A stretch of DNA of 28,860 bases, taken from the IMG/VR virus record IMGVR_UViG_3300036804_000069, positions 1 to 28,860 of that record. The stretch is one strand, 5' to 3'. The notes under the pieces are model-generated. The model did no database searches and had not been told where the DNA came from. It saw only the letters and a list, made by a program, of their open reading frames with translations. This document shows, in pieces, positions 16,890 through 19,676 of this stretch (position 1 is its first letter; each line of letters opens with the position of its first letter). Source of the DNA: a virus. Made by a program: the position numbers and the translations under genes.

Positions 16890-17060
16890 GTGAGTTGCTG
16901 CCCGCGCTGCACTGCTGCGTCCCTGATTGATCCGGAGAGCGGTTTGCGATGGTGCGCTCGGTGCGGGCAGCACTTCGGTCTTGAGGTCCGCCGTTGCTCG
17001 GGGCTTTGGTGGCAGCGCGCTCGCGCTACCAGAGCGCCGGCCAGGCTTCGGGAGCACTGA
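16890..17060 (+). CDS. Small zinc-ribbon protein
   Basis: The 56-residue protein starts at GTG 16890, 11 bases after the DUF397 stop, behind GAGAGG. It has two cysteine pairs, CCPRC (3-7) and CARC (22-25), spaced as in a zinc ribbon, followed by a basic, Arg/Ala-rich tail. It lacks further domains. The role is unknown; a nucleic-acid or protein-binding knuckle is plausible. It is the last gene before the candidate attP. Confidence 0.65.
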   Translation: MSCCPRCTAASLIDPESGLRWCARCGQHFGLEVRRCSGLWWQRARATRAPARLREH

Positions 17061-17142
17061 CCAGGACGACACCGACCGCCCCGGTCGGCCGCACCCCGTC
17101 GGCCGGCCGGGGCTCACTCGCGTCTTTCCCGCAGGTCAGCAG

Positions 17143-17192
17143 CCACATGTTTTAGACACAATGTTGGTGGTCACTGTGTACAAAACATGCTC
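17143..17192. other. Candidate phage attachment site (attP)
   Basis: An AT-rich island lies 28-78 bases beyond the 3' end of the integrase gene. It contains a 44-bp imperfect dyad at 17146-17189 with arms CATGTTTT and AAAACATG, then ACACA/TGTGT, then TG/CA. From the outside inward, 15 of the first 18 positions pair, while the central 8 bases do not. The centre falls on the non-palindromic dinucleotide GT at 17167-17168. This size, symmetry and location match attP sites of large serine integrases. No experimental or homologous site is available here to confirm it. Confidence 0.6.
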
Positions 17193-17220
17193 CTACTACC
17201 GCAGTCAGCCCCTGGGTGGG

Positions 17221-18852
17221 CTACTCGGCCTCGGTGGTCACCTCGGCCCATGGGTCAGGCTCCCACATCGGGTGGACCTCGACGCTCACCCCGTTTTCCG
17301 TCCGGACGAGCGCCACCCGCCGCAGGAGCTGCTTCAGTAGAGCGTTCTTCTCGGTGTCGTGCATCTCGACCCAGGTATCCAGCAGCCCCATGAGGATCGG
17401 CTCGTAGTCGGTTCGGTGCGGCATGGTCTCCACCTTCGCTACCCGTTCCATCGCCGCCGTGTTCACCGCCTGCTGCTGCCTGATCCTGTCGCGCGTTGCC
17501 TCGTACTCACCAGGCCCGTACTCGTCCGGATTCATGGCCCGGTCGGCGCGTAGGTTCGTGAGGCCGGCCGCGAGCTTGATTGCTTCCGCTTCCAGCCGCG
17601 CCCGCTCGCGGGCCGCCATCGCCCTCTCGTCGATGACTGCACTGCGCGGGGCGGGGATTGGGGGCGCCGCGTCGATATCGGGGGCCACCTCCCGTTCCGC
17701 CCACGCGCGGACTTCCTTTTCAACGTGTGCGCGGTTTGCCCATACACCGCCGCAGCCATGCATTGCCGTGATAGCCCGTAGACCGCATGCGTAGGCGTAG
17801 CCGCGCACGTTGGTAACGACGCCTTTTACGGATCGCTGGGCTGACTGTGCGGGGACAGTCCCGTGGCACTCACCGCATTTGATCAGATTGGTGAGGGGGT
17901 AGAGCGCCCGTCGAGCCCGCGGCGGGGTCGCCTTGATTGCCTTGCGGCGCTCGCGGTACAGCTGCCACAGCTCCGCGTCAACCAAGTCCTCTTGGGCACC
18001 TGGCACGAAGAGCATGTCAGGGCAGTTGCCGCGTTTTTCCTGGGGGCACCGGCAGGCTGGATTGTGGACGCGGAGGAGCCCCGCGCAGAAGCCGGAATCC
18101 ATGTAGCGCATCAGGGTCTGTTGGGACCATGCGCCGCCGCGGACGGTGCGCCATCCGGCCTGGTTCAGGTCAGCCACCATGCCGTAAAAGGGGTCGCCGT
18201 CTACGTATTGCCTGTATCGGTCGGCCATAACCGGGCCGGTCTCTGGGTGAGCTGTGTACGTCTCTTCTTGCAGCCGCCATCCTGTCGGGGCTTGCGCATC
18301 AGGGACGCGGCGAGGCGTCCAAATGTACCCGAACCGAGGCCGACCGGTTGAGGGCAGGTGAAGTTTGTAGCGGCGGTGGTCGTGCGTCTCCCGCCACTGC
18401 TCGCCGCGTACGTCGCTTTCGTAGGCGGCGAATTCGAAGAGGATGCCGCGCTGGAGTCGGCCAGTGGCGGTGCGGGCGTCGCCTTCCTCGGTGGCGGATT
18501 GCAGCTGCCCGCCCGCATCTTCAAGGCGCTTGAGGTTGACCGCGACGCCGTCGCGGGTGCGCCCGAAGCGCGAGTATTTCCAGACCGCGATGCCCTTGAC
18601 GTCACCGGCTTCTATCCGCTTGATACCGCCCATGATCTTGCGTTTGAAGTTCCGGCCGGTTGTGTCAAGGTCGGTAATCCAATCGACGATGCGCCGGCCG
18701 GTGCGGGTGGCCCATGCCTCAATGGCGGTGCGTTGTAGCTCTGGGCTGATCTTTTCTTCCTTCCATGTGCTGACTCGGATGTAACCGAGCCAGGGCTCGC
18801 CGTCCTCATTGGTCGGCGAGCCCTGGAAGGTGGCTGGTACTGCTGTGGTCAT
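17221..18852 (-). CDS. int: Large serine integrase
   Basis: The 543-residue protein is a large serine recombinase. The catalytic domain (about 20-165) has YIRVST with catalytic Ser28, and AVWKYSRFGRTRDG with the helix-E arginines. A recombinase domain follows (about 185-290, GRPRFGYIW, then VADLNQAGWRTVRGGAWSQQTL). A zinc ribbon has CGEC and later C-x-C cysteines (LIKCGECHG, YACGL, HGCGG). A coiled coil (RERARLEAEAIKLAAGL) precedes the C-terminus. It would recombine attP with a host attB without supercoiling; excision needs a directionality factor not identified here. ATG 18852-18850 lies one base from the stop of the upstream membrane gene, which favours it over an extended frame reaching 19029 that overlaps that gene. 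Confidence 0.93.
   Translation of the reverse strand: MTTAVPATFQGSPTNEDGEPWLGYIRVSTWKEEKISPELQRTAIEAWATRTGRRIVDWITDLDTTGRNFKRKIMGGIKRIEAGDVKGIAVWKYSRFGRTRDGVAVNLKRLEDAGGQLQSATEEGDARTATGRLQRGILFEFAAYESDVRGEQWRETHDHRRYKLHLPSTGRPRFGYIWTPRRVPDAQAPTGWRLQEETYTAHPETGPVMADRYRQYVDGDPFYGMVADLNQAGWRTVRGGAWSQQTLMRYMDSGFCAGLLRVHNPACRCPQEKRGNCPDMLFVPGAQEDLVDAELWQLYRERRKAIKATPPRARRALYPLTNLIKCGECHGTVPAQSAQRSVKGVVTNVRGYAYACGLRAITAMHGCGGVWANRAHVEKEVRAWAEREVAPDIDAAPPIPAPRSAVIDERAMAARERARLEAEAIKLAAGLTNLRADRAMNPDEYGPGEYEATRDRIRQQQAVNTAAMERVAKVETMPHRTDYEPILMGLLDTWVEMHDTEKNALLKQLLRRVALVRTENGVSVEVHPMWEPDPWAEVTTEAE
18790..18826 (-). promoter_or_regulatory. Perfect 12-bp hairpin in the 5' coding part of int
   Basis: CCAGGGCTCGCC at 18790-18801 is exactly complementary to GGCGAGCCCTGG at 18815-18826, with a 13-nt loop. 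It lies 27-63 bases into the integrase reading frame. Such a strong stem just after a start codon can slow ribosomes, hide translation signals or cause early termination, so it may limit integrase synthesis. There is no T-run on the minus-strand transcript side. Confidence 0.55.
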
Positions 18853-18853
18853 G

Positions 18854-19219
18854 TCACTGAGCTTTCCGTTCGGGGTTGTTGGTGCCGGTGACGCGAGTGG
18901 GCAGCCGCCGGACGTTTTCGAAGTCAGCGTGGCCGCCGTCTCCGGTCGGCGCGGTGGTTGGCGGTTCAAGCAGGCCGCGGGCGACGTGGTCGAGGGCGAG
19001 GCGGTATCCGGCGGTGTGTGCGTCGGCAAGCTGGTCGGCTGCCACCTGTTGGGCGCGGCGTTGGGTCCAATAGACGACTACTGGGAGGGCGGCGAGTGTC
19101 GTAAGTAGGCCGACGGTAGCGAGCAGGTCGGCATGGTGGGTGGGAAGAAGTCCGGCAGCACCTGTGAGAAGTCCGGCCGTGACGGCGAGAATTGCGGCCG
19201 GCGGGATGGTGTGGCGCAT
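18854..19219 (-). CDS. Two-span membrane protein between repressor and integrase
   Basis: The 121-residue protein has two predicted membrane helices (about 5-26, IPPAAILAVTAGLLTGAAGLLP, and 32-51, LLATVGLLTTLAALPVVVYW) joined by a very short His/Asp loop. A 68-residue soluble tail follows, with a helix QRRAQQVAADQLADAHTAGYRLALDHVARGLL and a basic end. By the positive-inside rule the tail faces the cytoplasm. ATG 19219-19217 has GGAGG seven bases upstream. It lies 25 bases after the repressor gene and one base before int, so all three should share one transcript expressed in lysogens. No family is recognised. Superinfection exclusion is a reasonable guess from the position, not shown by sequence. 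Confidence 0.78.
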   Translation of the reverse strand: MRHTIPPAAILAVTAGLLTGAAGLLPTHHADLLATVGLLTTLAALPVVVYWTQRRAQQVAADQLADAHTAGYRLALDHVARGLLEPPTTAPTGDGGHADFENVRRLPTRVTGTNNPERKAQ

Positions 19220-19244: not shown

Positions 19245-19676
19245 TTACTCGGCGACGGCGTCGCCGTTGGTGGTGGGGGGCTTCCGTAGGGTTTCTGTCA
19301 TTGAGACGAACAAGCGGCGTGCCTGATCGTCGACGATGCCAAGTTCGTCTGCTGCCTCGTCGGGTGTGATGTGCCGCCGGGCGCCGGGGGTCTGAACGGC
19401 CCTTAGTTCGTCTGCCGAGAGGATGCCGGCGCGGACGAGGATTTCGGCCAGGGGTACGTCAAGGGCTGCGGCAAGTTGGGCTAGGACTCGGGTATCTGTG
19501 GCGCCCTGGCCGCTAAGAATGCGGCTGATTGTGGCGCGGCCAATGCCGGAGTCGTCCGCGAATCGCGTGCGGCCTCCGCCGCGGGCTGACATCTCGTATC
19601 CGCGGCGAACAAGCTGATCGTGCAGCCACTCGCCGAACTGTTGGGCCTGAGCCCCAAGCCCATCTCTATGTTCCAT
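19245..19676 (-). CDS. HTH repressor, probable immunity repressor
   Basis: The 143-residue protein has a Cro/CI-type helix-turn-helix (about 14-75: FGEWLHDQLVRRGYEMS, then FADDSGIGRATISRILSGQG, then DTRVLAQLAAALDVPLAEIL). A C-terminal region with a helical DEAADELGIVDDQARRLFVSM may dimerise it. There is no peptidase (LexA/CI-like) domain. It heads the minus-strand lysogeny unit and diverges from the Cro-like gene, the standard arrangement of a genetic switch. The ATG at 19676-19674 has no Shine-Dalgarno; a TANNNT hexamer 6 bases upstream suggests a leaderless message. A 14-bp palindrome overlaps the start codon, consistent with self-repression. Confidence 0.82.
   Translation of the reverse strand: MEHRDGLGAQAQQFGEWLHDQLVRRGYEMSARGGGRTRFADDSGIGRATISRILSGQGATDTRVLAQLAAALDVPLAEILVRAGILSADELRAVQTPGARRHITPDEAADELGIVDDQARRLFVSMTETLRKPPTTNGDAVAE

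Follow-up and report, generated by a model that had tools for sequence, protein, structure and literature searches.

For phage SV1, the attP has been proven experimentally to lie downstream of int (PMC4068962), and the announcement of the cluster BP phages makes no mention of att sites (PMC9583777). Elements that integrate at the 5' end of genes are known from other systems: IMEVchUSA3 at dusA and ICE SXT at prfC insert into the 5' end of their target and supply it with a new N-terminus and with expression signals and, in the dusA case, 35 codons are replaced and a new promoter has been shown (PMC8409611). That an element restores the 5' end of a host gene is, as SXT and the dusA island illustrate, already known. 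Here, we describe an attachment site next to a serine integrase gene in a phage related to SV1 and the BP phages.

The integrase region of the phage

The window, i.e., the whole stretch of 28,860 nucleotides that was analyzed, derives from a Streptomyces phage that resembles SV1 and cluster BP, and is recorded in IMG/VR as a linear virus fragment. The Streptomyces phages closest to the 7-kb middle section of the window are HFrancette, Cumberbatch and Vondra (cluster BP), followed by ToastyFinz, Darolandstone, PapayaSalad, Raleigh and SV1. Genes and site follow each other in the order tape measure, endolysin, HTH, attP, integrase, repressor and RecT, and no tRNA target is present in the window. 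The integrase and the two genes upstream of it are as follows:

17221..18852, minus strand: large serine integrase of 543 aa (PF00239 and PF07508; phrog_95 integrase)
18854..19219, minus strand: small gene between repressor and integrase (phrog_12722, unknown function; annotated as a membrane protein in HFrancette)
19245..19676, minus strand: HTH repressor, upstream and in the same operon direction (phrog_3949 transcriptional repressor, HTH_3)

Resolvase and Recombinase domains of the integrase score above the cut-off and its 543 residues fall into the range expected for large serine integrases (~450-700). The C-terminal part, where a zinc ribbon and a coiled coil would be expected, yields no Pfam match at 0.001; paired cysteines (CGECHG, HGCGGVW) are visible in its sequence.

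An imperfect dyad adjacent to int

The site itself is composed of the following elements:

17146..17189, minus strand: 44-bp imperfect dyad with both half-sites, assigned as attP from dyad scoring, its conservation in BP phages and the breakpoint of related prophages
17167..17168, minus strand: central (crossover) dinucleotide, AC in integrase orientation and GT on the plus strand; dyad centre, within the sole sequence common to attL and attR of relatives
17168..17189, minus strand: integrase-proximal half-site, predicted to become attL and to fuse in frame to xthA
17146..17167, minus strand: integrase-distal half-site, predicted to become attR; matches the phage halves of attR in loci L041 and L133

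The dyad reads CATGTTTTAGACACAATGTTGG/TGGTCACTGTGTACAAAACATG, with its centre between G17167 and T17168. In complete agreement with the initial annotation, rescoring returned a 44-bp imperfect dyad that is centred on GT and pairs at 15 of the 18 outer positions, and the description as an AT-rich island in GC-rich DNA adjacent to int also holds: GC content is 38.6% compared to a mean of 69.2%, a value as low being found in only 0.03% of all 44-mers of the window, and the integrase stop (17221, minus strand) is 31 bp away. Size and position are those of a serine integrase attP, for which an imperfect dyad of ~40-50 bp beside int is expected. When the outer 18 positions are scored, the dyad is the only centre in the 28.9 kb window that reaches at least 15, with 0.15 expected from 20 first-order Markov copies of the window. 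Over all 22 pairs the score is undistinctive, since 13 centres in the window reach at least 15/22, and proof must therefore come from comparison.

The same dyad directly follows int in the BP phages, which encode integrases 76% identical to that of the window. Identity is complete across the 28 integrase-proximal columns; in the distal half, 6 of the 22 positions differ. When viral contigs were searched with a DNA pattern of the half-site, L008 was the only locus to match.

Junctions in related prophages identify xthA as their target gene

Prophages with integrases 68-69% identical to that of the window, from S. luteolifulvus (L003) and S. roseicoloratus (L004), break exactly at the dyad. In S. 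luteolifulvus (69% identity), attL consists of the integrase-proximal half joined to an exonuclease III gene (GAGTGTTTTGCTAACTGTGACCTC/CGCCAATGTGAACGG), and at attR, ~40 kb away, the native start of the exonuclease III gene is joined to the distal half (GGGTGCTCACTGTGACCTC/AGTCAACGTGGGTAAAACACTC). The two junctions have only ACTGTGACCTC in common, the last two bases of which are the dyad centre. In S. roseicoloratus (68% identity), attL and attR share only ACGAC, which likewise ends on the dyad centre AC. A third relative, L057, exhibits the same attL arrangement, and in all three prophages the half found at xthA is homologous to the proximal half-site of the window. The host gene at the junctions belongs to Exo_endo_phos PF03372, and an uninterrupted (empty) xthA site is present in two other Streptomyces, where the protein starts with M-L-T-V-T-[S/T]-[V/A]-N-V-N-G. 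Phylogenetic analysis placed the xthA-targeting integrases, with the window integrase among them, in one supported clade (99/95).

The comparison of attL and attR half-sites that had been proposed with the initial annotation thus locates the junctions of related prophages exactly here, with a shared core that ends on the central dinucleotide; at the dyad centre, attL and attR of the relatives carry a non-palindromic AC or TC, as expected for serine integrases, identity of the dinucleotide being seen in the relatives and, for the window phage, on the attP side. Breakpoint, target (xthA codon 6) and shared core can be read directly from the sequences of the related prophages. Prophage junctions at the dyad, a PF03372 host gene and a single xthA clade make it very probable that the dyad represents an intact attP used by the adjacent serine integrase; after integration, xthA is probably rebuilt. 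No prophage of this exact phage was found, and we infer xthA codon 6 as its own target from relatives with integrases 68-76% identical. On this model, the integrase would cut at the central 2 bp (AC) and join attP to attB at xthA codon 6. Target gene and codon, together with the start-codon function of one attP half described below, go beyond the initial annotation.

The RNA of the region folds into a long hairpin (z -4.0), and the dyad could accordingly be regarded as acting on the integrase transcript, as a terminator or a regulatory hairpin, rather than as an attachment site. We give this hardly any credence: it lacks a T-run and was missed by the terminator scan, related prophages break exactly at its centre, and its left half stays fused to xthA in lysogens, where the hairpin is absent.

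The site is in the unrecombined state

In the window, phage sequence makes up both half-sites and both flanks. The flank on the distal side, CTGACCTGCGGGAAAG, is found again in the phage-derived half of attR in S. luteolifulvus and, in more diverged form, in the BP phages, and a distal CTGACCTGCGGGAA block is present in the same attR half. Gene order runs unbroken through the site, as in free phages (HFrancette); provirus records, in contrast, end at or near it. Since both flanks are phage DNA, the site is, to judge from its surroundings, an unrecombined attP, belonging to a free phage, to excised DNA or to an internal junction of a tandem prophage. The same conclusion had been drawn earlier from the symmetry of the half-sites; it is upheld by the phage flanks and the continuous gene order, symmetry alone being a weak argument.

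It is very unlikely that the DNA stems from a lysogen, with the site being either a recombined attL or attR or the internal attP of a tandem prophage. The absence of host sequence from both flanks excludes attL and attR, and gene order continues through the site. The argument from the flanks is limited to attL and attR, as a tandem prophage with an internal attP would look identical in sequence, and two contigs of S. roseicoloratus point to attP junctions of this kind in the assembly of a lysogen. These contigs of genome G002, C79 (119,588) and C114 (end 1), with loci L068 and L005, carry the same ~41.8 kb prophage; each contig terminates at the 5-bp att core, a pattern that attP junctions would produce, whether from a tandem prophage or from excised circles. 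The IMG/VR proviruses L009-L011 and L013 are trimmed at the integrase stop and give no junction.

The integrase-proximal half-site carries putative start signals in frame with xthA

Two elements of the proximal half and its border would be relevant for translation of the target gene:

17190..17194, minus strand: AGGAG, Shine-Dalgarno-like sequence, 6 nt before TTG
17181..17183, minus strand: TTG, start predicted to be supplied to xthA, followed by TAC ACA GTG ACC (Y T V T); frame anchored on the core

Read in the xthA frame, the proximal half is AGGAG-6 nt-TTG TAC ACA GTG ACC/AC, so that attP-supplied codons (M-Y-T-V-T) face native M-L-T-V-T. All six xthA-type sites examined have the TTG, no stops and M-x-T-[VL]-T, and a Shine-Dalgarno match is found in five of them. 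An initiation signal in frame with codon 6 occurs in 5/6 related half-sites vs. 0.6% of random positions. A start and N-terminal codons supplied in frame by the element are thus present in the related prophages and predicted for the window phage, where the attP half would provide xthA with a ribosome-binding site, a TTG start and codons 2-5. Integration therefore probably rebuilds xthA, as far as can be read from the half-sites, rather than destroying it.

Sister attP sites contain the TTTTG motif as well, without using it as start, and it must therefore be seen first of all as an integrase-binding motif. As it forms an internal codon there, and as relatives of the SV1 type do not repair the AMP-ligase genes into which they insert, the in-frame start could be a mere by-product of this motif, with attP assigned correctly and integration simply disrupting xthA. 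We consider this unlikely, because all xthA-type sites inspected retain the start codon, an open frame and M-x-T-[VL]-T, five of six with a Shine-Dalgarno match, and because the sister clade even carries a 5' fragment of its host gene. Beside int, phages of this clade contain the first part of an acyl-CoA ligase gene (~75-100 codons from the 5' end), which stops inside attP (L012, L014, L015, L018, L019 and L022, after int; L048, L049, L050 and L053), and prophages such as L048 have the fragment joined in frame to the host gene. The sister clade thereby lends support to restoration as a genuine theme among these phages.

The SV1-type integrases located inside AMP-ligase genes (L051, L054, L061 and L064) are accompanied by no sign of gene restoration. 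L058 had been labeled as acyl-CoA-ligase-type; the label is doubtful, as no arm motif is present at this locus and the tree places it within the SV1 branch. L058 and L067 (G044, contigs C1 and C2) represent an identical integrase and flank at two places in one genome.

Predicted transcription of xthA and host range

Beyond attP, a candidate end of the integrase operon was noted:

17078..17113, minus strand: strong G+C hairpin (RNA fold z -2.6 for 17060-17130)

The hairpin has no U-run and was missed by the terminator scan; a similar one is present in HFrancette. Terminator and promoter scans returned nothing near attP, and no convincing terminator lies between int and attP. On recombination, the likely terminator would move to the other prophage end, which would leave xthA as the last gene of the repressor-integrase operon, with which it is probably transcribed. 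On the minus strand between 17131 and 17225, the xthA start signals in attP are buried in the long RNA hairpin (z -4.0); integration removes one of its arms and could switch xthA translation on.

The central dinucleotide corresponds to positions 1-2 of xthA codon 6, AC specifying Thr and TC Ser. AC is found in 37 and TC in 170 of 296 Streptomyces genomes, with neither pattern in the others; the core of the window phage, AC (GT on the plus strand), matches the rarer Thr and not the commoner Ser allele. Both alleles also occur as core dinucleotides of phages. Productive joining by serine integrases requires that the central dinucleotides be identical, and the window phage should therefore be limited, on the evidence of its core, to AC-allele hosts; its attB would be found where xthA codon 6 is a Thr codon (ACN). 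We tentatively propose, at somewhat less than even confidence, that attP doubles as translation start of xthA, that lysogeny moves the host exonuclease III, a DNA-repair enzyme, into the repressor-integrase operon and that the AC/TC core decides which Streptomyces species can be lysogenized.

Comparison with known systems

Codon 6 of xthA constitutes a new mapped serine-integrase target in Streptomyces that differs from the sites of phiC31, phiBT1 and SV1 and is useful for integrating vectors, which would do the host gene little harm if xthA is truly restored. The attP sequence would have to satisfy two codes at once, one for binding of the integrase and one for starting a host gene. Two propositions become testable, namely that lysogeny puts exonuclease III under phage control and that a 2-bp xthA allele limits lysogeny.

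The recombination itself is ordinary, attP, place and chemistry being those of the SV1 family. The SV1 integrase (gp27) belongs to the same family (~50% identical) and the gene order is the same; as in the window, the SV1 attP is a dyad of about the same size downstream of int with a short shared core (PMC4068962). SV1, however, integrates inside SCO4383, a CoA-ligase gene, whereas the window phage is predicted to target the start of xthA and to restore its host gene. Closer still are HFrancette, Cumberbatch and Vondra with their 76% identical integrase and identical integrase-proximal attP half. In a partial literature search, we found no report of a serine integrase that restores a start codon or of integration into xthA. 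IMEVchUSA3 and SXT use tyrosine integrases and, as a mobilizable island and a conjugative element, are unrelated to the window phage, which would resemble them in 5'-end integration with a new N-terminus and new start signals. In the window phage, unlike in the dusA case, these putative signals are contained in the attP half-site or border on it.
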